Positions 3,227 to 19,242 of a stretch of 38,906 bases of DNA are shown in pieces (the first letter of the stretch is position 1; the number at the start of each line of letters is the position of its first letter). The DNA lies in contig JAOULO010000031.1 in assembly GCA_029881995.1 (NCBI GenBank), positions 1-38,906 on the forward strand, read 5' to 3'. The notes below the pieces were generated by a model. It ran no database searches. It saw nothing but the letters and a program-made list of their open reading frames with translations, and was not told the origin of the DNA. The position numbers and the translations under genes are program-made. The stretch is from Gammaproteobacteria bacterium (GTDB lineage Bacteria > Pseudomonadota > Gammaproteobacteria > UBA6429 > Thiohalophilaceae).

Positions 3227-5383
3227 GTGCTTAAACAAAATCTTTGCTTAAGATTACTGACACAAGTTTGTTGCATCCTTACATTATTACAAAGTCAGTT
3301 TCTCCGTGCGCAAGACAATAGCCTGATACAGCTATCTAAAAATGATAGCCTGATGTTGCTATATGGTGACCATAATACAGTTTCCATTGCCACTGGAGCA
3401 GAAAAGCCTATCTATCTTGCACCTTCAGTGGCTAGTATTATTACAGCTGAGGATATTCTTGCTACTGGTGCCACAACCCTGGAAGAAGCACTGGTATCAG
3501 TTCCTGGATTACATATCTCATTATCATTTAATCGGCTAAACCCCATTTATTCATTTAGAGGTATCCATACTGGGGCAAACCCACAGGTCTTATTGTTACT
3601 AAATGGTGTGCCGCTACGGCAATTATTTTCAGGTTCCAGGCCTAATAGTTTACGTATGCCCGTCAGTAATATAGAAAGAATCGAAGTGATACGAGGGCCT
3701 GGTTCAGCCGTATACGGAGCAGATGCTTTCTCGGGTGTAATTAATATCATAACCCATACATCAGCTAAACAAAGTTATAGTGAAGTTGTCTTAAAAGCAG
3801 GTTCCTTCGATAGAGAAGGTGGCTGGATTAACTCCTTTAAGCAACTTGGAAACTGGGATCTACAATTCAATTTTGACTCAGATAAAAGTAATGGGGACCG
3901 TGGCAGAATTGTGAAATCAGATTTACAGACAGCCCTTGACAACGGCTTTGGTACCAATGCTTCTAAAGCACCCGGCCCACTGGAAACCCGATACAATGCA
4001 ATAACAAGCAGCCTGGCACTGAGTAACCAAAACTGGAATTTTGACCTCTGGCTGTATAAGAATGAGGATGCCGGAGTTGGCCCAGGAGCTGCCCAGGTAC
4101 TGGATCCGAAAGGCCGTCAGGATACCACTTTGTATTTGTTCGATATGAAATACACTTCAGACAATACTGGTGACTGGCGGTTCGAAACCCAGGCAAATTA
4201 TTATTATGGTGAAAGTAAATCTCATTTTGTAATTTTCCCTGAAGGAACCCGGGTCTTAATCGATTCAGATGGTAATATTGTTAGCTCTGGAGGAAGTGTT
4301 GTTGATTTTCCAGATGGGATCATTGGTGCCCCGGTAACAATGGATCAACAAACAGCAATTGAATTTCGGACGTATTACAAAGGCTGGCAGGACCATCAGA
4401 TACGTCTGGCCGCTGGAGCTCAAAAACACAAACTAACAGCAAAAGATCAGAAAAACTTTGGTACAGGTGTAATAGATGGTAGCAGTTCGCCTGTTGATGG
4501 CACACTAACCGATGTCAGCGGAACTGAATATGCCTTTATTAAGGATCAGGAAAGAACGGTTTATCACCTCTCATTTCAGGATGAATGGAAATTCCTTGCC
4601 GACTGGGAACTAACCTATGGTGCCCGAGCTGATGAGTATTCTGATTTTGGCACAACTGTTAACCCCAGGTTGGCGGTGGTCTGGTCAAGCAGCCTGAATT
4701 TTACAACAAAATACCTTTATGGCAGAGCCTTTCGGGCACCATCATTTAATGAATTATACGCAATTAACAATCCAGCCATTTTAGGTAATCCAAAACTCAA
4801 ACCAGAGGTAATTGATACCATGGAGTTGGTCTTTGACTATCACCAGGGTAGTCATGATCAATTACAATTGAGTCTATTCAAGTATGAAGTCGATGATCTA
4901 ATTCAATATGTTATAGACAGTAACGGCACAACCAGCACTGCACAGAACACTGCAGGCATTGAGGGCTATGGTTATGAGCTGGAAAACCGTTGGCACATTG
5001 CTAAACACCTCCATGTTAATGCCAGCTACTCATGGCAACTATCACGCTATAAGGATACAGGGCACATTGTTAATGATGCGCCTCAACAACGTCTTTACTT
5101 TAATCCTCGATGGGAGGTTATTTCAGATTGGCACCTGGGTCTTGAGGCTTATCGTGTTTTTAATCGAAAGCGTGCTATCAATGATAAACGTAGTGAGATA
5201 GATGATTATACCTGGGTAAATCTTACCCTAAGGTATCAGCGGAGCAAAAATGATTGGGTATTTACCAGCGGAATTAAAAATCTGACCGATGAAGATGCTA
5301 GAGAACCCAGTAATGGACGAATTTCAGATGACTACCCCCTTGAGGGTCAAAGTCTTTATATTGAAACGGGCTACAGATGGTAA
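3227..5383 (+). CDS. TonB-dependent outer-membrane receptor
   Basis: Outer-membrane transporter of 718 residues with a signal peptide (about 1-28). A possible TonB-box-like segment, TVSIATG, lies before the plug domain. The plug (about 65-180) shows TLEEALVSVPGL, SFRGI, VLLLLNGVPL, IERIEVIRGPGSAVYGADAFSGVINIIT. The beta-barrel (about 200-718) has the TonB receptor signature FRAPSFNELY...NPKLKPE and ends in aromatic W. Its plug most resembles cobalamin/siderophore-type (BtuB/CirA-like) receptors, but the substrate is not readable. The start is GTG 3227 with AGG nine nt upstream; no Fur-box-like palindrome was seen in the 191 bp upstream. It converges on the hybrid kinase gene (35 bp apart). 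Proximity to a binding protein-kinase operon suggests a sensing or uptake partnership. Confidence 0.92.
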   Translation: MLKQNLCLRLLTQVCCILTLLQSQFLRAQDNSLIQLSKNDSLMLLYGDHNTVSIATGAEKPIYLAPSVASIITAEDILATGATTLEEALVSVPGLHISLSFNRLNPIYSFRGIHTGANPQVLLLLNGVPLRQLFSGSRPNSLRMPVSNIERIEVIRGPGSAVYGADAFSGVINIITHTSAKQSYSEVVLKAGSFDREGGWINSFKQLGNWDLQFNFDSDKSNGDRGRIVKSDLQTALDNGFGTNASKAPGPLETRYNAITSSLALSNQNWNFDLWLYKNEDAGVGPGAAQVLDPKGRQDTTLYLFDMKYTSDNTGDWRFETQANYYYGESKSHFVIFPEGTRVLIDSDGNIVSSGGSVVDFPDGIIGAPVTMDQQTAIEFRTYYKGWQDHQIRLAAGAQKHKLTAKDQKNFGTGVIDGSSSPVDGTLTDVSGTEYAFIKDQERTVYHLSFQDEWKFLADWELTYGARADEYSDFGTTVNPRLAVVWSSSLNFTTKYLYGRAFRAPSFNELYAINNPAILGNPKLKPEVIDTMELVFDYHQGSHDQLQLSLFKYEVDDLIQYVIDSNGTTSTAQNTAGIEGYGYELENRWHIAKHLHVNASYSWQLSRYKDTGHIVNDAPQQRLYFNPRWEVISDWHLGLEAYRVFNRKRAINDKRSEIDDYTWVNLTLRYQRSKNDWVFTSGIKNLTDEDAREPSNGRISDDYPLEGQSLYIETGYRW

Positions 5384-5418: not shown

Positions 5419-8142
5419 TTAATGCATTATAGATTTGACGGTATTATTATCTGGGATGATTAGTGTATTAATCATATTAACCAACTGGTTAGATTCAACT
5501 GGCTTTTGCAGAAATCCACTAATTTTCATCTCTCTGGATTTTTCTTCATCCATAACATCGCTATATCCAGTACAGATAATAATTGGTATATCCGGCCGTT
5601 TTTTTCGTAAAGCCTTGGCTAGTTTATGGCCTGGGAGAATTGGCATAGTTTGATCGGTTAACACCAGATCATAGTTACCTGGCGAACTTTCAAATGCTCC
5701 GAGTGCCTTGCATGGATCAACAAATAGTTCTACTTTATATCCTCGCTGGGTCAGCATCTCCTGTAAGAAACCGGCCAGATCATTATCATCATCCACAACC
5801 ATGATATTTCCTTTACCAGTTTCAGTCACAACTGAAGAACTTTTGTCGGTTTCTACCACATCCTCATGACTTACAGGGAACATTAACTGAAATTCAGTAC
5901 CCTCACCTGGTTTAGTATTAACAAAAACATGACCCTTATGATCATGTATAATTCCGTGTACAACAGACAACCCCATGCCTGTACCCTTATCAACATCCTT
6001 GGTGGTATAAAAAGGGTCAAAAATCTTGTTTAGTGTCTGACTATCCATTCCCTTGCCTGTATCTCGAATTTTGACTGTTAAAAAATCACCCTCAATATGC
6101 TTATGACAAGAGCTACAAATTTGTCCTTCATTATTGACATGAGAAATTGAGAGATCAATAACTCCTTCGGAGTTGTCAATCGCATCTCGTGAATTGATAC
6201 AAATATTCATAATGATTTGGTGAAACTGAACTGCATCTACCATTGCAGGAGGGAAATCATCAGTAAGTTCATCACGAATAACTATTGAACTAGGCATAGT
6301 GGAGCGTAACATCTTAATCGCATCCCTGATATGTGGGGTCAGTTCCAATGGTTTTGTTTCAGACGTTCCCCCTCGGCTAAATGCAAGCATCTGACTTATG
6401 AGTACTCTAGCTCGCTCGGATGCCTTTGATACCTCCGTTAAATATTGATTCAATTTTGGATCATGCCCAAACATCTCAAGACTGAGACCTGTATAGCCCT
6501 GTATACTCGCCAATATATTATTAAAATCATGCGCAATCCCACCAGTTAGATGGCCAATTGACTCCATTTTTTGGGCCTGTCGTAATTGTTTCTGAAAAGT
6601 TTCTCTTTCCTTTTCAGCCTTTCGCTGATCTGTCAAATCTTCCAGCGCAATTACATTAATTTCTCTATTGTTAAACTGGACTTTACGTATTCTAATTTTT
6701 ATAGGGAAGTATGTTTGGTCATGCCTCAATCCAATTGTTTCAACAGATGCTTCCTGGTTGGTATTTAATACTTCCATAACCACATCACGTTGTTCCTCAG
6801 CAATTAACATCCTGAAGTCTGAAGCAATCAACCCATATCGCCCAACATCGAACATTTGTTCTACTGTATGGTTTACTTCGACAATTAAACCATCCTCATG
6901 TATCAGAATCCCTTCAAATGTTGCATGAGCAAGAGTTTTAAGAAGGTCAGTACGTTCTACTCTAGATGTAACATCATGTGCAATACCATGTACTGCAATC
7001 ACCTTTTCATCTACAATCTCAGGTGTTTCGACAACTTCAAGCTGACATAGACTTCCATCTTTTTTAATTACTTCGACTTCAAACTTAGGTTGCATTTCTC
7101 CCATCAGACAAGCCTGATGATATTTTAAAGAATCTTCATTTTTACTACTTGCTGTAAGGTAGGCTTTAAAATTGTTTGTGAACTCTGTGGCTGAATAACC
7201 CATCATGGGTTCGACTGATGGTGAAATATAGGTAAAATCACCATCAGGTGATTGTGTATAAATAAAGTGCTCTTCAGATAAAGACTCTACAAGCCGCCGG
7301 TATTTTGATTCACTATTTATGAGGTTTGTTACACCACCATTTATTTGTTTCTGGCTTATTAAATAGTCTTCTCTATGTATTGCGATATCACAGATTTTAC
7401 GTAGCTGACTGGCACTAAAAGGCTTACTGATAAAATCCGTCGCACCTGCTAACATAAGCTCACTGGCCATTTTTTGATCGCAATGTGCTGTCATAATAAC
7501 AACTGACTGAAGAGGGTCTTCTTCGGATATTACACTGAGTACATCAATACCTGATAATTTTGGTAACATGATATCCAGCAAAACCAGATCATAATCACCT
7601 TCCTGCCAGGCCTTCAGACCACTCTCCCCATCCATCTGCACATCAATTTCATAGCGGTTATCAAGAAACCGTTTGATTAAATTAACTGTATCTTCAGCAT
7701 CCTCAATAACAAGAACCTTTGCCCTATACAGTCGTGTATTTTTACCGTCTAAATTAGTTAGCGTTTCTGTCAGTTTATAAATATCATTGAGATTAACAAA
7801 AACGTCCACCTCAAATTCACGGGCCATTGCCTCAGTAACGCGTTTACTATAGGTTCGACTTACAACAACAAGAGGGATTGTTTCTTCAACATTTAATATG
7901 CTTGACCTGATGAGACGACATAATTTCCAGCCATCCATATCTGGCAAATCAGGTTCAATGACAACACTCTCATATTTACCTGTATTTAGTTTGCTAATTG
8001 CTTCTTTGGCACTGGAGGCAAGGTCGAATTTGAGCCCATTAGATTTCGATAACTCTTTCTGTATAACCCCGCACTCTATCGGATTATTACATACCAGAAG
8101 TATATTTGAGTCAATCTTATTGGTAGGCTTGTTATTGTCCAT
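5419..8142 (-). CDS. Hybrid histidine kinase: pseudoREC-REC-PAS-PAS-HisKA-HATPase-REC
   Basis: Cytoplasmic hybrid kinase of 907 residues with no membrane helix. Receiver 1 (about 13-130) lacks the acidic pocket: the acidic pair is NN, the phosphoacceptor position is E63 and the conserved Lys is N. Receiver 2 (about 142-258) is intact (D190, K240). Two PAS domains follow (about 280-400 and 405-510). HisKA has H538 in GGIAHDFNN. The HATPase has an N-box SRDAID, DTGKGM, and KGTGMGLS, with an inserted CSSCH (676-680). The C-terminal receiver (about 779-895) has D830 and K880. It is third in the leftward operon after the binding protein and membrane kinase, 143 bp beyond the latter, so it may also have its own promoter; its ribosome-binding site is weak. 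It probably relays phosphate from the membrane kinase to an Hpt protein. Confidence 0.92.
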   Translation of the reverse strand: MDNNKPTNKIDSNILLVCNNPIECGVIQKELSKSNGLKFDLASSAKEAISKLNTGKYESVVIEPDLPDMDGWKLCRLIRSSILNVEETIPLVVVSRTYSKRVTEAMAREFEVDVFVNLNDIYKLTETLTNLDGKNTRLYRAKVLVIEDAEDTVNLIKRFLDNRYEIDVQMDGESGLKAWQEGDYDLVLLDIMLPKLSGIDVLSVISEEDPLQSVVIMTAHCDQKMASELMLAGATDFISKPFSASQLRKICDIAIHREDYLISQKQINGGVTNLINSESKYRRLVESLSEEHFIYTQSPDGDFTYISPSVEPMMGYSATEFTNNFKAYLTASSKNEDSLKYHQACLMGEMQPKFEVEVIKKDGSLCQLEVVETPEIVDEKVIAVHGIAHDVTSRVERTDLLKTLAHATFEGILIHEDGLIVEVNHTVEQMFDVGRYGLIASDFRMLIAEEQRDVVMEVLNTNQEASVETIGLRHDQTYFPIKIRIRKVQFNNREINVIALEDLTDQRKAEKERETFQKQLRQAQKMESIGHLTGGIAHDFNNILASIQGYTGLSLEMFGHDPKLNQYLTEVSKASERARVLISQMLAFSRGGTSETKPLELTPHIRDAIKMLRSTMPSSIVIRDELTDDFPPAMVDAVQFHQIIMNICINSRDAIDNSEGVIDLSISHVNNEGQICSSCHKHIEGDFLTVKIRDTGKGMDSQTLNKIFDPFYTTKDVDKGTGMGLSVVHGIIHDHKGHVFVNTKPGEGTEFQLMFPVSHEDVVETDKSSSVVTETGKGNIMVVDDDNDLAGFLQEMLTQRGYKVELFVDPCKALGAFESSPGNYDLVLTDQTMPILPGHKLAKALRKKRPDIPIIICTGYSDVMDEEKSREMKISGFLQKPVESNQLVNMINTLIIPDNNTVKSIMH

Positions 8143-8285
8143 TTAACTTAATATTAAGCGATTTATCTCAACAAAAAGTATACCAAACTCTTAACTATCG
8201 ACAATATAAACTTTGTAAACATGAGTTAATTGATAAATAGTTAGTTTTACACTAATTCACAAATTAAGATTACCAAATGTTACAG
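8143..8285 (-). promoter_or_regulatory. Gap upstream of the hybrid kinase gene
   Basis: A 143-bp very AT-rich gap inside an otherwise tight leftward gene set. It is long enough for a promoter but I could not identify a convincing one. A GTCGATAG on the minus strand resembles a sigma-28 -10 element but lacks TAAA 15 bp upstream. Confidence 0.3.
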
Positions 8286-9839
8286 TTACAAATTTATATT
8301 TACTGGTAAGGATACATGGAATGTACTTCCTTTACCTAACTCACTATGCACTGTTATGGAGCCTCCAAGCAACTCACAAAACTGTTTCGATACGGTTAAC
8401 CCAAGACCTGTTCCCCCGTAATCTCTGACGATGCTCCCATTTGACTGTTGAAAGGCGGCGAAAATCAGATTAACCTTATCTGGCTCTATACCAATTCCTG
8501 TATCATCAACAGTTATATCTAACATATCCTCTGATACATTGACATAAACCGTGATTTGCCCGTCTTTTGTAAACTTTGCTGCATTTCCAACCAGATTAAC
8601 CAAAATCTGGAATACCTTTTTTTTATCCATGAATACTGAACGGGTATTACAATTTATGTGTCTAGTTAAATGATTACCATTTTTTTCAATCAACGGCATT
8701 GTTGCCGTTTCGACATCATTTATTAACTCTTGCAGATTTACGGTTGTATTCTCTGCAGTTAATGCTCCATTTTCCAATTTTGCCATATCAAGAATTGAAT
8801 TTATTAGTGACAACAGGTGCTTGCCATTAGATTCAATACTTTTTAAATCCTCATCAATCTCTGTAACACCTGCTTCAAGGGCTACTTCAGATGCCACTTC
8901 TACATAGCCAATAATCGCTTGCAAGGGGGTTCTTAACTCGTGCGTCGTATTGGATAAAATCTCGGATTTATATTTGTTAGCTCTAATGGCTTCATCCCTT
9001 GCCTCAATAATTTCTTTTGTTCTTTCCTGGATTGTTATTTCAAGTGATTCGTTATACTCCTGAATTTTTTTATCCCTCTCTATAACAGTATTAACTAGAT
9101 TATTATACGCAGTTGCAATTTCCTGCATTTCTGCTGGCCCCTTTACCCCAGAATAGTTAACTAAATCCCCTCGAATGGAATTGCTCATTGTTAGAGTTAG
9201 TTGATTGAGAGGCGTTAAAAAATAGTTCAGTAAGTAGTATAAAATAAGCAAAACTGTGATGCCTAACATCAATCCTAATACAATATTAGTGTTTAGTGTG
9301 TTTATTGTTGTTTCGTGAAGAAGATTCTTACTAGAGGAAAGATACACATACCCAATCAACTCCTTCGTTTGCTTGCTTTCATAAATATTGAATAGTTCAT
9401 CTTTATTTTCATTATTGCTAGAATAAACCGGGGCAACAAAGTGCCATTCAGACTGATCTTCATTAAGAGTTTTGACATCTGTAATATTTCTAACATCACT
9501 TGCTAATAGGTCATGTCGTGTCGATTGACTTCCTGTCTCATAAAGAATTGACATATCAATATTAATTATTGCCACATGGATAATATCAGGAAATTCCAGG
9601 ATGCTATTGGCTGCACTTTTGGCGTTTTCACTGCTTTTATATAATAAAGCCAAACGGCTATGAAGTGCAGCGCTTCTCGTATGCTGCAGACCAGATTCAA
9701 TCAATAGTCTCTTTGTATGATTATTGCTAATCCAGCTTGCTGTCATCGCCATAATCAAAGATATTACGATAACACTTACTCCAAACAACAAAAACAATTG
9801 GCCTTTAAATGTTATATTTTTCAATTTGCTCAACATCAT
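8286..9839 (-). CDS. Membrane sensor histidine kinase
   Basis: Inner-membrane kinase, 517 residues. TM1 about 14-36, periplasmic sensor region about 37-183 (CHASE8-like by eye: LLIESGLQHTRSAALHSRLALL and VAIINID), TM2 about 184-208, HAMP-like linker about 209-262, coiled coil, HisKA with H300 in NTTHELRTPL, and HATPase with NLVGNAAKFT, DDTGIG and YGGTGLGL. No receiver is attached. The ATG at 9839 has AGGTGA six nt upstream, located at the end of the preceding gene; a second ATG follows immediately. It starts 6 bp after the binding-protein gene, so co-expression is very likely, and the arrangement recalls LuxP-LuxQ, where a periplasmic binding protein feeds a kinase. Phosphotransfer to receiver 2 or 3 of the downstream hybrid kinase is an inference. 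Confidence 0.92.
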   Translation of the reverse strand: MMLSKLKNITFKGQLFLLFGVSVIVISLIMAMTASWISNNHTKRLLIESGLQHTRSAALHSRLALLYKSSENAKSAANSILEFPDIIHVAIINIDMSILYETGSQSTRHDLLASDVRNITDVKTLNEDQSEWHFVAPVYSSNNENKDELFNIYESKQTKELIGYVYLSSSKNLLHETTINTLNTNIVLGLMLGITVLLILYYLLNYFLTPLNQLTLTMSNSIRGDLVNYSGVKGPAEMQEIATAYNNLVNTVIERDKKIQEYNESLEITIQERTKEIIEARDEAIRANKYKSEILSNTTHELRTPLQAIIGYVEVASEVALEAGVTEIDEDLKSIESNGKHLLSLINSILDMAKLENGALTAENTTVNLQELINDVETATMPLIEKNGNHLTRHINCNTRSVFMDKKKVFQILVNLVGNAAKFTKDGQITVYVNVSEDMLDITVDDTGIGIEPDKVNLIFAAFQQSNGSIVRDYGGTGLGLTVSKQFCELLGGSITVHSELGKGSTFHVSLPVNINL

Positions 9840-9845
9840 CCGTAA

Positions 9846-10772
9846 TCACCTGTTAGGAAAAACTACATCAAAACCACTCAGTTGATTGTCATTAAATCTC
9901 ATCCCTAAATGATGGCCTGTTCTGATATTTATTGCTGACTTTGAATAAATTGTATTTTCTCGGATAGTTCTATGCTTCTGTTTAATAACATCCAGACTCA
10001 CCTTGCCTATTTGATGTCCCATGCCTTTATTATCCGGATACATAGCAAACAGTCCTCCCTGTTTGACATAAGCTGGACTTGTTGAAAAAACAATAAATTT
10101 ATTATCCCAGGCTGACTGCAATATCTCCGGTAGTATAACATCACTGGGGAAAACACTATCGACGGGCAACCAAATTGCATCAGTCTGCTTAATAACAGAC
10201 AATATGTCTTTATATATTTTGGCTGCATCGAAACTGGACTTGGCCTGTTTGGCCACTAGTTTAATATTAAGCTTGTCAGCAATATCATATGCCTTTTTAA
10301 TCATCCACTGGTTAGTTGATGGATTAAAGACTACAAATACACGCTTAATATCTCCATGCATTTTCTTTAACCGTTTAAACACAAGTGATGGTTCTATATT
10401 CATGCATATACAGTTATCTTTAGGTAACACCTCAAATACTGCGCTTATAATAGTGGGTATATTCAGCTTAAGTGATTTAACAAAGTGGTAACTTTTATTT
10501 CCAAGGACAATAATTATTTTTGGTTTTATATTATGAAGTTGTTTTAGAAAAGCATCCGATGAGCTTGAGTCATCATATTTATACTTTGTAACTTCTAAAT
10601 TGTCAGTTGTCACTATTCCACTAATAATATTCTCATAAACCTGATTAAAGGGTTTACCGACATCAGGATAAACAACCAGTGCTGTATAATTGCTCGAAAA
10701 TGCCGGCCATGAAAATAAGCACGCAATCAGAACAGCACCATATTGCCAGTACTTGAAATATTTATTGCCCAT
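9846..10772 (-). CDS. Periplasmic ABC-type substrate-binding protein (ABC_sub_bind family)
   Basis: Secreted binding protein of 308 residues with a signal peptide (about 1-27, WPAFSSN at the cleavage region). The body resembles the ABC_sub_bind family (PF04392): an N-terminal lobe with KPFNQVYENIISGI and IIIVLGNKSYH, the hinge-type IKRVFVVFNPS, and the C-terminal pattern AIWLPVDSVF...PAYVKQGGLFAMYPD...G. No ABC permease or ATPase gene is in the window, so it is more likely a sensor subunit than a transporter component. It is first in the operon with the membrane kinase 6 bp downstream. The upstream region carries two CCCTATAAC copies and a TATAGGGA/TCCCTATA palindrome. The ligand is unknown. 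Confidence 0.87.
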   Translation of the reverse strand: MGNKYFKYWQYGAVLIACLFSWPAFSSNYTALVVYPDVGKPFNQVYENIISGIVTTDNLEVTKYKYDDSSSSDAFLKQLHNIKPKIIIVLGNKSYHFVKSLKLNIPTIISAVFEVLPKDNCICMNIEPSLVFKRLKKMHGDIKRVFVVFNPSTNQWMIKKAYDIADKLNIKLVAKQAKSSFDAAKIYKDILSVIKQTDAIWLPVDSVFPSDVILPEILQSAWDNKFIVFSTSPAYVKQGGLFAMYPDNKGMGHQIGKVSLDVIKQKHRTIRENTIYSKSAINIRTGHHLGMRFNDNQLSGFDVVFPNR

Positions 10773-13150: not shown

Positions 13151-14317
13151 ATGGTCGATAACGTAGACAAATCCCTCGCAGAACAATTGTGCATAAATGA
13201 CCGAGAAATTTCGGTTAGAAAAGGTATGCTTGAGTTTGAAGAATATGAGATCAAATACCTGATTGAAGCAAAACCTTATATATCAGAAAATCTTGATACA
13301 ATAGTCAGCTTATTCTATGAAAAACTACTTAAAAACAGCGAAGTCTCTCTGGTAATTGGTGACAAGGAAACTCTCTTACGTCTCAAATCAGCGATGCGCC
13401 GTTATATCATTGAACTTTTTTCAGGTGACTATGGTACTGAATACACTAGCCGACGGTTGAGGATTGGTAAGGTTCACAAACAGATTGGTGTTCCGCCAAA
13501 ACTTTATTTATCTGCAATCTGGCGATTAGAAGACATTATTTCCGATGTAATAGCCAATGCAGATGAAAAGCGTATTCATCAGTCTACCAAAACTAAAATT
13601 AAACGCTCTATAAGGAAGCTGTTAATGCTGGATACTCAGTTTGTCTTTGATACTTATATTTCCAGTCTTGTTAATGAAGTACAGAACGCCAAACACGAGT
13701 TACAGGATTATGCCGATAGTCTGCAGGAAATGGTCGATGTGCGCACCAAGCAGCTTGAGGAGATGTCACGTCTTGACGGTCTAACCAACCTGTTTAATCA
13801 AAAAACATTATATGAATACTTATACCGTGAATTAAACATATGTGAACGACACAGAGAGGAATTAAGTCTTGTGTATTTTGATTTGAACAATTTCAAACAG
13901 ATTAATGATACTCATGGCCATCAGGCTGGTAACCAAATCCTGATACAAACGGCTCGCTCAATTCAGAAAAATATTCGTGAAGTGGATATACCCTGTCGTT
14001 TTGGCGGTGATGAATTTGTCATTATCCTGCCAAGAGCGGCCGAAGAAAGGGCTATTGAGGTAATGGAAAGAGTAATTCACGATTTTTCAAATCATGTACC
14101 ATATGATGTGAGCTTTAGTATCGGTATTACATCCGTTAATCTGGACAATGTGCCAGATGCTGATTCCCTTATCAATTCTGTGGATCAGCTAATGTATAAA
14201 TCAAAAGAGAAATCTCATCAAGAACCGGGGTTTTATATCACGGCAACAGATGGACCTTCTAAAGAAGTAAAATCACATTTCAATGGAAAAAAGCAGAGTA
14301 TAAAAGCCATTAAATAG
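13151..14317 (+). CDS. Globin-coupled sensor diguanylate cyclase
   Basis: Makes c-di-GMP from two GTP under control of heme-bound gas. Residues about 10-170 form a sensor globin: Y56 in the B helix region as a possible distal ligand, and H109 in GKVHKQIGVPPKLYLSA as the proximal heme ligand, matching the DosC/YddV class of oxygen sensors. A coiled coil (about 172-205) leads to a GGDEF domain with FDLNNFKQINDTHGH, intact GGDEF (285-289) and an RxxD inhibitory site (R276-D279) five residues before it, so product inhibition is expected. 388 residues, cytoplasmic. Last gene of the chemoreceptor operon; the ribosome-binding site is a weak AGAAAAGA. It links oxygen sensing to c-di-GMP in a chemotaxis-type operon. 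Confidence 0.93.
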   Translation: MVDNVDKSLAEQLCINDREISVRKGMLEFEEYEIKYLIEAKPYISENLDTIVSLFYEKLLKNSEVSLVIGDKETLLRLKSAMRRYIIELFSGDYGTEYTSRRLRIGKVHKQIGVPPKLYLSAIWRLEDIISDVIANADEKRIHQSTKTKIKRSIRKLLMLDTQFVFDTYISSLVNEVQNAKHELQDYADSLQEMVDVRTKQLEEMSRLDGLTNLFNQKTLYEYLYRELNICERHREELSLVYFDLNNFKQINDTHGHQAGNQILIQTARSIQKNIREVDIPCRFGGDEFVIILPRAAEERAIEVMERVIHDFSNHVPYDVSFSIGITSVNLDNVPDADSLINSVDQLMYKSKEKSHQEPGFYITATDGPSKEVKSHFNGKKQSIKAIK

Positions 14318-14604: not shown

Positions 14605-15069
14605 ATGGCCATCAAAACTGAGCATTTATTTCACAAGGAATTTTTACGCATGAGTGCACTGCTCAGTGCTGTTTGTTTGTTTATGGTTGGTATTTATTCC
14701 GAGAAAGTAGAAGCTCAGGAAGTCATTGTTAATATGTCAGTCAATAAAACAAAAATTAATAAGCGAGTCCTGAAATCGATTTTCAGGATGCAATTATTAA
14801 CCTGGCCCGATGGGACACCAATCAAGGTGTTTGTACTACCAGGAAAGAATTCTACCCATGTCAGTTTTTCTAAAACCGTACTTAATACTTTACCACACAG
14901 TCTCCAGAGAAACAGGGACAAGCTGGTATTTTCGGGGACAGGGGAAAGTCCAGTTATTGTCAAATCAGAGGAAGAAATGCTGAAACGAATTGCAACAACG
15001 CGCGGTGCAATTGGCTATGTTGCAAATATCGAAAAAAAGACAAAGATAAAGGTGCTTCATGTTTATTAA
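14605..15069 (+). CDS. Short PstS-like periplasmic substrate-binding protein
   Basis: 154 residues with a signal peptide (hydrophobic core about 17-31, EAQE near the cleavage site). The mature part follows the phosphate-binding-protein fold pattern: VIVNMSVNKTKINKRVLKSIF, WPDGTPIKVFVLP, and GAIGYVAN near the end, which corresponds to the GAIGYV motif of PstS-like proteins. It is about half the length of a transport PstS, so it would have a single lobe. AAGGA lies 10 nt before ATG 14605; ATG 14650 with a similar AAGGA is an alternative that shortens the signal peptide's n-region. It overlaps the porin gene by 11 bp. With no ABC transporter nearby it is probably a sensor component for the operon's membrane GGDEF-EAL enzyme (inference). 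Confidence 0.8.
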   Translation: MAIKTEHLFHKEFLRMSALLSAVCLFMVGIYSEKVEAQEVIVNMSVNKTKINKRVLKSIFRMQLLTWPDGTPIKVFVLPGKNSTHVSFSKTVLNTLPHSLQRNRDKLVFSGTGESPVIVKSEEEMLKRIATTRGAIGYVANIEKKTKIKVLHVY

Positions 15070-16255
15070 ACAACACCAGTTAATAATATACCTATTTATT
15101 TATTCAATCAGTCTATGTAGTGCGACGGAAGAGGACAGTCCTTTTCGTGTACATGGATTTGTTAGCCAGTCGTATATTTATACAGATCACAACAATTTTT
15201 TTGGTGATCAAAATGGTAATGGCAGCCTGGATTTTCGTGAAATAGGATTCAACACTTCTTATAGAATGTTACCGCAGCTAAGGTTTTCAGGTCAGGTATT
15301 ATCTCGCAATGCTGGTCATGTGAATGACTCAGATCCTCGTATTGATTATGCTCTGATGGATTATCGTGCTATTGATAATACTAACATCAATGCAGGCATA
15401 AGAGCTGGAAGAGTAAAAATTCCTATTGGATTTTATAATGATACTCGGGATGTTGCGCATACTCGAAATGGTATTTTACTTCCTCAATCAGTTTACATTG
15501 CATCACTGCGTGATATGTTTCTTGCTGCAGATGGTGGCAGTCTTTATATGAACAATTCATCTGATTTTGGTAATGTTGGATTTAGTTATCATTCAGGTAA
15601 TCCTGTGATAAGCAAGGAAGGTAAAACTGAGCTTGAATACATTTTGCTTACTGTTAACGATCCCGGCAATTTTGAAGCAGAGCCATTTGAGCTCTATCGC
15701 CTGGATTATACATCTATAAATGAGCGTTTTCGTCTAGCATGGACCCGAGCAGAAGTAGACTTTAGATATGTATCCGCACCTAATTCAATAATCCCACCAG
15801 GCAATATTAGTATATTAGCCAATATATATTCTATGCAGTTTAATTTAAATAAATTTGATTTTACTATTGAATATATGGATGGTATGAACACAATCAGTAA
15901 TTTCTCACCAGTAATACCAAATCAAACAGTAAATAGCCAGAGATACTATTACCAGATCGACTACCATTTTATTGAAAAATGGAATTTATATCTTCGCTTT
16001 GATCATACCCACAAAAACAAAGATGACCCAATGGGCAAAAAATATGCGCAGCAAACAGGCAAGCCTGCACATACTCAGTTCGCGATGGATAGAACTATCG
16101 GGTTAAGATGGCACCATAGTACTAATATGATGTTCGGATTTGAATATCATATTATTGAAGGTACTGGCTGGTTATCACCACAGGAAAACCCAGATCCCAC
16201 TAAAACTAAAAAAGACTGGAACATGCTGATGTTACAGGCTGCATATAGATTTTAA
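15059..16255 (+). CDS. Outer-membrane beta-barrel (porin-like) protein
   Basis: 398 residues with a signal peptide (about 1-22). The mature protein alternates polar and aromatic residues throughout (FRVHGFVSQSYIYTD, LRFSGQVLSRNAGH, YYYQIDYHFIEKWNLYLRFDH) and ends with AAYRF, a C-terminal Phe typical of outer-membrane barrels. An internal GIRAGRVKIPIGFYND recalls the family of phosphate- and carboxylate-type porins. The ATG overlaps the end of the PstS-like gene by 11 bp, so translation is probably coupled. It is followed after 14 bp by the GGDEF-EAL gene. Outer-membrane barrel, periplasmic binding protein and inner-membrane enzyme from one mRNA suggest an envelope-spanning sensing unit. The substrate cannot be read. 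Confidence 0.83.
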   Translation: MFIKQHQLIIYLFIYSISLCSATEEDSPFRVHGFVSQSYIYTDHNNFFGDQNGNGSLDFREIGFNTSYRMLPQLRFSGQVLSRNAGHVNDSDPRIDYALMDYRAIDNTNINAGIRAGRVKIPIGFYNDTRDVAHTRNGILLPQSVYIASLRDMFLAADGGSLYMNNSSDFGNVGFSYHSGNPVISKEGKTELEYILLTVNDPGNFEAEPFELYRLDYTSINERFRLAWTRAEVDFRYVSAPNSIIPPGNISILANIYSMQFNLNKFDFTIEYMDGMNTISNFSPVIPNQTVNSQRYYYQIDYHFIEKWNLYLRFDHTHKNKDDPMGKKYAQQTGKPAHTQFAMDRTIGLRWHHSTNMMFGFEYHIIEGTGWLSPQENPDPTKTKKDWNMLMLQAAYRF

Positions 16256-16269
16256 TAATTGGCTAAACA

Positions 16270-19242
16270 ATGGATAAGTGGGATTATGGATTTAAATCAA
16301 ACTGGTTAGTCATGCTCGATCAGTTATCTAAATATATAATTAGAAAATGCAACAGGATTTGTGGTTTCAAAAATCGCTTTATTAGCCTTAAATGGAAAAT
16401 CACTTTAGCCATCAATATGATAATAATATCTGTTGGTACTTTAATACTTACCATCAACATTGATCACCTATATCATCACCAAAGCAAATATGAGTCTGTT
16501 CGCTATCAACGTGAAAACATCTATATTCAAACCCTTATTGAACAATCAAAAGATAAATTATTTGAATTTTCTGAATTATTACTATCCTCTTCTGATATAA
16601 AAAATATTTTATTAGCTGATAATCCTGGCAGCATAAAAACAGTATTTACCAGATATTGGAATACCATCCAAGGTACTACCACAGTGGGTTATATTGCACT
16701 TTACAACAGTAAGCTCTCAAAAATCGGTGAATGGGGTAATCTTTTAAGTAAATCTGGTAATCGTCGTCATATTATTAAAACTGAAAAAATTGCAGCTACA
16801 GTAACCAGTGAATCTCCTCAATCCTACCTGGCTTGTATCGAGACCTGTAATCTCTATGTTTCATATCCTGTGTTAATTCAAGGCATGGTCTCTGGTGTTC
16901 TTGTCTCCTCGACTCGACTTGTTGATCTATTACTGATTATGCATAAAAGTACCAAAGCTGACATTGGTGTTCTCGTTCCTATTGATAGAAATTATCCTGA
17001 ATTTAATAATTTAAAATTAGATTCCTGGGGCTACAGAATTTCTTCCTTAACCAACAAGCAGTCATCATATGACATTTTATATAAACTTGAGCGAGTTTAC
17101 TCAATTCCAGAATTTAATAAAAAAACACTCAAGCTACAGCAGTATAACAAATACTATACTGCTGATTTTATACCTATTGGTGAAGGAAGTAACGCAGGAC
17201 TAATGGCCTTATTATATGATGATACAGAAGTTATGACCACTATCAAAAATGAGATCCTTCTTGTAATCGTTATTGGTATAGTTGGCTTATTGTTATTACA
17301 GATATTTATCACACACATTCTATGGCGACCTTTAATTAGGCTTAGAAATACAGCTCACACACTACCTATGCTTGCTGACAGTAAGTATGAAACCGTCAGA
17401 AATAGTGTTATTTCCCAGTTAGACAAAGGAATATATCAGGATGAGCTTGATATTCTTGATGAAACAACTGTTGAATTATCTTATGAGCTTGAAATCTTGC
17501 ACAACAATCTTGAGGAAAAAAATGTTGAATTATCTAGTGTCATAACAGACATTAAGAAAAACAGGGATTTTGTTTCACAACTATTAAATAATGCGCAGAT
17601 ACTTGTCCTAACATTATCCAAAGACATGAAAATCATGTCCATTAACAAATTTAGTGAAAATATACTGAATGTTGGTAATGGTGAACTGTTACAAGCCAAT
17701 TTTAAAGATGTATTCCCAATGGATAAGGATTATGAAGAGCAATTCAATGCCATGTTATCTGGAAGTCGTGATTCAATTAAGAATGAGTCTGTAATTAATG
17801 TAAATGGGTCTGACGATATAACCATTGACTGGATACATTCCATTTTACCAGTATCTTCAAATGAAGACTCATATGTTCTTAGTGTAGGATCAGATGTTAG
17901 CCAACGTAAAGAAATAGAGAAGAGACTTTCTTGGCTTGCTGATCATGATGCTTTGACTGGCTTGTTTAATCGACGACGTTTTGCTCAGGAAGTAAAATCA
18001 TTATTATCTGATTCAAAAAGATATTCACGAACAGGAGCTCTTTTCTACATGGATCTTGATGATTTCAAGGACATCAATGATACTGTAGGTCACTATGCTG
18101 GCGATATGGTTCTCAAGGCAATTTCTAATATATTAAGCAAGAACACAAGGGAAACAGATATCATATCCAGGATTGGTGGCGATGAATTTTGTGTTCTAAT
18201 CAAGGAAGTAGATGAAAAAGACGCACTCATGTTGGCTAAGAAAATTGAAGGTAAGATACTAAACAAAAAAATTCTTATTAATGGTAAACATTATAGTGTT
18301 GGATGCAGCATAGGAATTGCAATGTTTCCAGAGCATGGTGACAATTATACAGATCTATTGTCTAATGCAGATATGGCCATGTACAAGTCAAAACAAAGCT
18401 ACAACAATAGCATTAATCTATTTAGCAAAACAGATTTTGATAAAGAGTCTACCCATGATCGTATATACTGGTCTGATGAGATAAAAGATGCCATTAAGAA
18501 TAATCGTTTTGCCCTTTACTATCAACCCATAATAAATATTCAAAATAACAATATTTCACATTACGAAGTATTACTGAGAATGCTATCACCGATGGGGCGT
18601 ATCATTATGCCTTTAAGTTTTATTCCAATAGCAGAGAAAAGTGATCTTATAAACATGATAGATCGGTGGGTTATAAAAACAGCCATACTAAAGTTACAGG
18701 ATGTTCATAAAACAGAGCCTGATATAACTTTTTCAATAAACATTTCTGGAAAGGCCATCAATGATGCTGAATTCTTACCCATGATTCATGACTTACTAAT
18801 CAGCACCAGTGTAGATCCATCAAAACTTATCTTTGAAGTGACAGAAACAGTTGCAGTCTCTGATTTTGAACAGGCTACGCTGTTAATAGAAAACCTAAAG
18901 TCCCTAGGCTGTAAGTTCGCAATTGATGATTTTGGTGTTGGTTATTCATCATTCTATTATATGAAAAAATTGCCTATAGACTTTGTCAAGATCGATGGAT
19001 CATTTATAAAAGAGCTGCATAGGAGTCATGACGACCAGGTTTTTGTCAAAGCATTATGCGAAGTTGCAAAGGGCTTTGGAAAGAAAACTATTGCAGAATT
19101 TGTAGAGAATGATGATGTACTAAAACTACTGATGGCATATGAAGTGGATTATGCACAGGGTTATTTCATAGGAAAACCGTCGGATAAATTAGTCAGCGAA
19201 ATTAATAACAGAAGTACTTATATTCAGATACAGCCTTTATAA
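16270..19242 (+). CDS. Membrane sensor PAS-GGDEF-EAL protein (c-di-GMP synthesis/hydrolysis)
   Basis: 990-residue inner-membrane protein. TM1 about 42-63, large periplasmic Cache-like region about 64-327 with a Cys pair C189/C193, TM2 about 330-352, HAMP-like linker and coiled coil to about 430, PAS about 431-545, GGDEF about 555-712, EAL about 735-980. GGDEF is intact (636-640), with MDLDDFKDINDT and an RETD inhibitory site (627-630). The EAL signature is EVL (766-768); the catalytic Glu is retained, as are E857 in FEVTE, DDFG (886-889) and KID (907-909), so phosphodiesterase activity is plausible. The ribosome-binding site is weak and ATG 16312 is an alternative start. Third gene of the PstS-like/porin operon; it ends 8 bp from the convergent REC-GGDEF-EAL gene. 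Net direction of activity is unknown. Confidence 0.92.
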   Translation: MDKWDYGFKSNWLVMLDQLSKYIIRKCNRICGFKNRFISLKWKITLAINMIIISVGTLILTINIDHLYHHQSKYESVRYQRENIYIQTLIEQSKDKLFEFSELLLSSSDIKNILLADNPGSIKTVFTRYWNTIQGTTTVGYIALYNSKLSKIGEWGNLLSKSGNRRHIIKTEKIAATVTSESPQSYLACIETCNLYVSYPVLIQGMVSGVLVSSTRLVDLLLIMHKSTKADIGVLVPIDRNYPEFNNLKLDSWGYRISSLTNKQSSYDILYKLERVYSIPEFNKKTLKLQQYNKYYTADFIPIGEGSNAGLMALLYDDTEVMTTIKNEILLVIVIGIVGLLLLQIFITHILWRPLIRLRNTAHTLPMLADSKYETVRNSVISQLDKGIYQDELDILDETTVELSYELEILHNNLEEKNVELSSVITDIKKNRDFVSQLLNNAQILVLTLSKDMKIMSINKFSENILNVGNGELLQANFKDVFPMDKDYEEQFNAMLSGSRDSIKNESVINVNGSDDITIDWIHSILPVSSNEDSYVLSVGSDVSQRKEIEKRLSWLADHDALTGLFNRRRFAQEVKSLLSDSKRYSRTGALFYMDLDDFKDINDTVGHYAGDMVLKAISNILSKNTRETDIISRIGGDEFCVLIKEVDEKDALMLAKKIEGKILNKKILINGKHYSVGCSIGIAMFPEHGDNYTDLLSNADMAMYKSKQSYNNSINLFSKTDFDKESTHDRIYWSDEIKDAIKNNRFALYYQPIINIQNNNISHYEVLLRMLSPMGRIIMPLSFIPIAEKSDLINMIDRWVIKTAILKLQDVHKTEPDITFSINISGKAINDAEFLPMIHDLLISTSVDPSKLIFEVTETVAVSDFEQATLLIENLKSLGCKFAIDDFGVGYSSFYYMKKLPIDFVKIDGSFIKELHRSHDDQVFVKALCEVAKGFGKKTIAEFVENDDVLKLLMAYEVDYAQGYFIGKPSDKLVSEINNRSTYIQIQPL

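Follow-up and report, generated by a model that had tools for sequence, protein, structure and literature searches.

The window considered here is a 38,906-nucleotide contig (JAOULO010000031.1 of assembly GCA_029881995.1) from a gammaproteobacterium of the Thiohalophilaceae. At positions 14605–19242 of its forward strand lie three genes that run in one direction: the first encodes a 154-residue, one-lobe, PstS-like protein that is predicted to be periplasmic (hereafter hPstS; 14605–15069, +), the second a putative porin-like outer-membrane barrel of 398 residues with a C-terminal YRF (15059–16255, +), and the third a predicted inner-membrane receptor enzyme of 990 residues with dCache, GGDEF and EAL domains (16270–19242, +). 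The hPstS and barrel genes overlap by 11 bp, the barrel and enzyme genes are 14 bp apart, and the gene 5′ of hPstS is 287 bp away. In an initial annotation, made from the sequence alone, the ends of the three open reading frames (ORFs) and the one-lobe nature of the 154-residue protein were given correctly, as judged by an ORF check and by Pfam; the barrel was listed first, which is not the real order, and the genes were said to overlap, which is true of hPstS and the barrel but not of the barrel and the enzyme. Comparison with other genomes confirms that the triad is a recurring unit and not a chance grouping.

The three proteins of the triad

The enzyme carries a periplasmic sensor domain of the dCache_3 family (PF14827) at 16525–17145 (+; residues 86–292), recognized by Pfam with 43.1 bits against a curated cut-off of 25.7. 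Hydrophobic segments at residues 44–62 and 329–347 flank this domain, in agreement with the large periplasmic domain that had been proposed for the enzyme. The GGDEF domain (17938–18408, +; residues 557–713) has both its GGDEF motif and its RxxD I-site intact; the EAL domain (18475–19179, +; residues 736–970) reads EVL at the EAL motif, and the other motif residues that were checked are present. With its two hydrophobic segments and intact GGDEF and I-site, the protein has the expected make-up of a membrane-bound synthase of cyclic di-GMP (c-di-GMP), to which an EAL domain is added.

Alignment revealed within the sensor a CxxxC motif, formed by Cys189 and Cys193 (16834–16848, +), which is kept in all 37 aligned sensors of the same family. 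The eleven sensors compared with that of the window share 15–24% identity with it, and the GGDEF (33/37) and RxxD (26/37) motifs are less strictly kept than CxxxC, it being noted that the 37 include a kinase and cut frames. As a control, 30 loci were read from 53 PF14827 places in 104 genomes, and the frame in the middle of each locus was scored for CxxxC over its residues 41–360. All six loci that the sensor profile matches strongly have the motif, and none of the 24 other dCache_3 loci has it. One of these 24 (L224; L-numbers denote individual loci) matches the sensor weakly (E 2e-5), and its frame is broken; at some of the 24, the wrong frame may have been scored, because no recognized output domain is found there. 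The two cysteines may form a disulfide or a metal site. Redox-switch cysteine pairs have been described in the periplasmic c-di-GMP systems PdeC and HmsCD (PMC8846402).

In hPstS, a signal peptide can be discerned by eye at about residues 1–37, followed by a match to PF12849 (PBP_like_2) over residues 41–140 (14725–15024, +). This match is below the Pfam cut-off (24.8 bits against 27; E 2e-5) and covers profile positions 97–185 of 267, so that the 154-residue protein lacks the two-lobe architecture of PstS. A profile of the hPstS family (27 rows) recovered solved PstS chains with E-values down to 7e-12. In the three hPstS–PstS alignments shown, it is the middle of the chain that is covered; 4h1x was best matched near its end (residues 228–262 of 265). 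Backed by the family profile, we take hPstS to be a probable one-lobe relative of the PBP_like_2 binding proteins, and thus the window to contain a gene for a periplasmic binding protein. The relationship to the middle part of PstS does not extend to its anion loop. The arginine of this loop is kept in none of 40 hPstS proteins of the clade to which that of the window belongs (see below), being replaced by Leu (28), Phe (8), Thr (2), Gln (1) or Met (1); in the window, Leu replaces the arginine and N-S-T replaces S-G-T (SREDGSGT in a solved chain). We presume that this arginine and the SGT residues hold the anion in PstS. As lobe 1 is missing and the arginine is not kept, canonical phosphate binding by hPstS is judged unlikely from its sequence, and the phosphate or other anion that the initial annotation had read from the likeness to PstS is not sustained.

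A further difference from PstS is that no ATP-binding cassette (ABC) partner is seen beside hPstS; a Pfam scan of 20 window proteins, out of 35 ORFs of at least 120 residues, found no ABC permease or ATPase. The source genome encodes five further proteins, from open frames of 306–342 residues, that score above the PF12849 cut-off. In the region of residue 104, the hPstS of the window lacks a tryptophan that is conserved in at least 90% of 27 aligned hPstS proteins (RNRDK in place of RAWDR). An AlphaFold2 model of hPstS, made from an alignment with one other row (L033), had a mean predicted local distance difference test score (pLDDT) of 40 and was not used. Fusions of hPstS to a receptor were sought in the long frames that hold hPstS, and none was seen; several of these frames look like over-long choices of start. 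In five loci (L069–L073), hPstS forms the C-terminus of a long protein. Each of these five proteins has a long linker and, by eye, a membrane segment; those of L070, L071 and L072 have a DnaJ domain as well, and a barrel follows in all five loci.

The barrel of the window has no match in Pfam or NCBIfam. Among ten relatives that were scanned, six gave weak, below-cut-off matches to Porin_O_P, Porin_4 or OMP_b-brl, one gave a weak match to OmpA_membrane, and three gave no match at all. It is because of its family, its C-terminal YRF and a signal peptide (by eye) that we call the protein porin-like, and it is probably located in the outer membrane.

Recurrence of the unit

A profile built from six close relatives of hPstS (A2) was compared with 370 genomes of the class, 85 of which have a match at 1e-8; a wider profile places hPstS in at least 96 of the 370. 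In total, 143 stretches were read (including seven picked for a sensor match that has no hPstS), together with the window and a second set from the source genome, which covers 145 of 146 listed A2 places. One A2 place (G136:C216) is outside the counts; there, a barrel lies beside hPstS and no receptor is recognized. All frames were scanned, giving 151 hPstS frames, including six from records of other collections (L033–L038); at L175, the profile match was not recovered in the ORF scan. In a midpoint-rooted tree, 40 hPstS proteins including that of the window fall in one clade (support 0.91), for which counts below refer to 39, the outside record L034 being left out. The 106 hPstS beyond this clade are a remainder set rather than a proven clade, and include a 286-residue, probably full-size binding protein (the second hit in L073).

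Within the window clade, a barrel of the same family lies directly downstream of hPstS in 36 of 39 cases; for 27 of the 39, a receptor that shares the sensor family is encoded no more than three genes away. These 27 receptors comprise 23 GGDEF-EAL proteins, three with GGDEF and no EAL (two of which are probably broken GGDEF-EAL genes) and one kinase. The proportion rises to 30/39 on adding L075 (cut by the contig end), L108 (receptor nearby on the other strand) and L103 (a tandem copy). The last of these has an hPstS–barrel, hPstS–barrel tandem followed by one GGDEF-EAL receptor. In three members the sequence runs out at a contig edge (L090, L093, L119), and a further six lack a sensor of the same family nearby (L085, L102, L107, L113, L115, L118), L107 having a kinase with another type of Cache domain.

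Outside the clade, a barrel adjoins 94 of 106 hPstS (68 upstream, 26 downstream), giving 130 of 145 overall. The receptors within three genes of these 106 are more diverse: methyl-accepting chemotaxis proteins (MCPs) in 31, histidine kinases in 13 (11 on the other strand), GGDEF-EAL proteins in five and GGDEF proteins in four. By way of background, 478 genes at least five places away from hPstS hold one barrel and 11 receptors of these kinds. The barrel is therefore the constant partner of hPstS across the wider family. What varies is the receptor, which may be an MCP, a kinase, a GGDEF or a GGDEF-EAL protein, or may not be recognized at all. The initial annotation had treated the three genes as a unit, which recurs in the window clade, and had proposed that the idea would fall if the short PstS-like protein were usually found apart from GGDEF-EAL genes. 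It withstands this within the clade, 23 of whose 39 members have a GGDEF-EAL protein with the same sensor within three genes; it does not carry over to the wider family, in which a GGDEF-EAL protein is near only five of 106 and the barrel is the regular companion.

Some neighbourhoods deserve separate mention. In ten (L166, L181, L186, L192, L194, L197, L204, L208, L209 and L079), a conserved histidine kinase is encoded on the opposite strand beside the barrel–hPstS pair, 2–3 genes upstream of hPstS. In L033, a KSB1 record, barrel and hPstS stand together with a kinase that has a four-helix bundle. In L036 (plasmid MRG65-300 of Alteromonas mediterranea, 302 kb), an hPstS–barrel pair adjoins a type IV CRISPR locus.

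Sensors, outputs and surroundings

The association can also be approached from the side of the sensor. A profile of the CxxxC dCache sensor (A4) finds 36 places in 34 of the 370 genomes, of which 29 are within 5 kb of hPstS; about 0.1% would be expected by chance, given a list of at least 155 hPstS places. Three of the seven exceptions lie at contig limits: two of them adjoin a barrel where the contig ends, and a third begins where its contig begins. The other four have neither hPstS nor barrel in the stretch read. Similarly, a helical sensor that is characteristic of the MCPs (A6) is found at 47 places in 40 of the 370 genomes, 33 of them within 5 kb of hPstS and 14 not (chance again about 0.1%). 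The nearness of a third sensor to hPstS is known from stretches picked around hPstS and is thus a matter of construction; the genome-wide figures for A4 and A6 are the fair ones.

One sensor family can carry different outputs. The CxxxC dCache sensor, usually joined to GGDEF-EAL, is joined to a complete GGDEF domain alone in L095 (dCache_3 above cut-off) and to a HisKA-REC-Hpt kinase in L101, where dCache_3 scores 22.3 bits, below the cut-off, and the sensor profile matches with an E-value of 6e-39. The helical sensor is joined to MCP domains and, in L078 and L202, to GGDEF; the third sensor is joined to ten divergently placed kinases and once to GGDEF-EAL (L174, dCache_1 by Pfam). Two further candidates for an output swap were rejected: in L097, the match to GGDEF stops short and another GGDEF-EAL frame comes after it, and L111 (G067) has stops in the hPstS frame. 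The source genome itself contains a second set, on contig C28, in the order barrel, hPstS, MCP; this hPstS is the sole other relative there, and within one genome input pairs of the same kind therefore accompany two different outputs.

Around the triad, signalling genes are dense. Between 11125 and 25470, the window encodes an MCP-domain protein, a receiver, an Hpt protein and a protoglobin-GGDEF protein (13151–14317), along with a receiver-GGDEF-EAL protein, another receiver, a receiver-HD_5 protein, a kinase and an HDOD protein. A second stand-alone binding protein adjoins receptors at 5419–10772 (−): an ABC_sub_bind protein (9846–10772) stands beside a histidine kinase (8286–9839) and a hybrid kinase with receivers (5419–8142), and a TonB-dependent receptor is encoded nearby at 3227–5383 (+). 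Rfam, at its gathering threshold, found two tRNAs across the window and nothing else.

Interpretation and relation to known systems

The closest described counterpart is VpvABC of Vibrio cholerae, which consists of a porin, a periplasmic binding protein and a membrane diguanylate cyclase (PMC12456836, 2025). Its authors predict that the porin imports an unidentified signal that is sensed by VpvB and VpvC, and suggest that vpvAB is perhaps a conserved sensing unit to which vpvC was linked later (PMC12456836). The relay from porin to enzyme put forward in the initial annotation is thus already in print, as a prediction for a like operon. The likeness, by description, is that a single operon joins a porin (a putative one in the window) and a periplasmic binding protein to a membrane-bound c-di-GMP enzyme; the barrel of the window clade represents a conserved barrel-like family directly beside hPstS, its Pfam matches being weak or absent. 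The order differs, being hPstS, barrel, enzyme in the window and porin, binding protein, enzyme in VpvABC; a barrel-first order is found for 68 of the 106 hPstS outside the window clade. The enzymes also differ, a 990-residue GGDEF-EAL protein with a CxxxC dCache domain contrasting with the 430-residue diguanylate cyclase VpvC (PMC12051071). The terms ‘methyl-accepting’ and ‘histidine kinase’ are both absent from the main text of PMC12456836. In the open literature in PubMed Central, judged in part by titles, we found no paper that ties barrel–hPstS pairs to chemoreceptors or kinases and none that ties a PstS-like protein to GGDEF.

Two other systems invite comparison. In NspS–MbaA of V. cholerae, as described, a periplasmic binding protein likewise acts on a membrane c-di-GMP receptor; NspS binds polyamines, and the binding protein of the window has a single lobe. 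NspS is full-sized, and we know of no barrel gene in the NspS–MbaA unit. YfiBNR of Pseudomonas aeruginosa links outer membrane, periplasm and an inner-membrane c-di-GMP enzyme in one chain; it differs from the triad in having a lipoprotein, YfiB, and a YfiR that is not known to resemble PstS.

We regard the triad as a variant of the VpvABC kind, differing in gene order and with an exchangeable output. More specifically, it would be an envelope-spanning, three-protein signalling operon in which barrel and hPstS form an input pair and the dCache-GGDEF-EAL receptor sets the level of c-di-GMP; we put the probability of this at roughly two in three. It is a matter of observation that the gene order is as given, that the arrangement recurs, that the sensor family goes with hPstS and the barrel when the output sometimes changes, and that the motifs of the window enzyme are intact. 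As to contacts, ligand and direction of the effect on c-di-GMP, we infer the following scheme. A solute passing the barrel, or the state of the barrel itself, would change hPstS; the changed hPstS would dock on the CxxxC dCache domain; and this docking would shift the balance between synthesis and breakdown of c-di-GMP. Across the loci, hPstS is accompanied most constantly by the barrel, and within the receptor it is the sensor that varies least. The simplest order of signalling would be barrel, hPstS, sensor and output.

Several points weigh against this interpretation. Over 22 sets, the distances of the five parts (hPstS, barrel, sensor, GGDEF and EAL) are all correlated with one another (0.57–0.87), as is expected because the unit is inherited together; hPstS correlates with the sensor at 0.69, against 0.61 for GGDEF and 0.57 for EAL, and the bootstrap intervals of these differences include zero. 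The barrel displays no preference in its co-divergence. The sensors of L156, L158, L159 and L160 have neither hPstS nor barrel in the stretch (for L156, 2.5 kb upstream only), and for 53 of the 106 hPstS outside the window clade no receptor is recognized within three genes. True swaps of output on the CxxxC sensor are few, namely the two described, and the profiles were built partly from the same sequences that were later found with them. It should also be noted that a receptor beside the barrel–hPstS pair might only regulate that pair.

The last point leads to the best-surviving alternative, according to which barrel and hPstS serve in uptake or in gating of the pore, with a receptor that merely regulates them or is co-regulated, and hPstS never touches the sensor. 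The constancy of the pair (130/145) and the half of the outside hPstS that have no recognized receptor speak for this; the reciprocal association of the sensor family with hPstS (29/36), the retention of the sensor when the output is a kinase or GGDEF only, and the lack of ABC components among the scanned window proteins speak against it, and we consider it unlikely. Somewhat less probable again is that the dCache domain alone senses a small molecule or redox state through CxxxC, with the barrel admitting the signal and hPstS in an auxiliary role such as that of a barrel chaperone. The restriction of CxxxC to this sensor family (37/37 against 0/24) and the cysteine-pair control of PdeC and HmsCD (PMC8846402) would fit such a scheme, but the regular presence of hPstS near the sensor (again 29/36) is not needed of a mere barrel accessory. 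A unit that senses phosphate or another anion through a PstS-like hPstS is very improbable and was rejected on the loss of the anion-loop arginine (0/40), lobe 1 also being absent, despite the relationship in sequence to PstS and weak, below-cut-off Porin_O_P matches in three of ten barrels (L033, L113, L108).

Beyond the signalling operon itself, a wider and more tentative proposal, to which we give slightly less than even odds, is that the barrel and the one-lobe PstS form a portable outer-membrane input cassette that has been plugged into several sensor families (CxxxC dCache, helical-bundle and the third sensor), with outputs exchangeable among c-di-GMP, chemotaxis and two-component signalling; the lobe would convey across the periplasm what state the barrel is in. 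The CxxxC motif, found in every sensor of its family that was read, offers a direct handle for mutation. For many c-di-GMP enzymes, the signal has yet to be found. If the barrel and the one-lobe protein are a general input unit for c-di-GMP, chemotaxis and kinase receptors alike, results on one pair would inform many receptors, and the annotation ‘phosphate ABC transporter substrate-binding protein’ would be misleading for the hPstS family.

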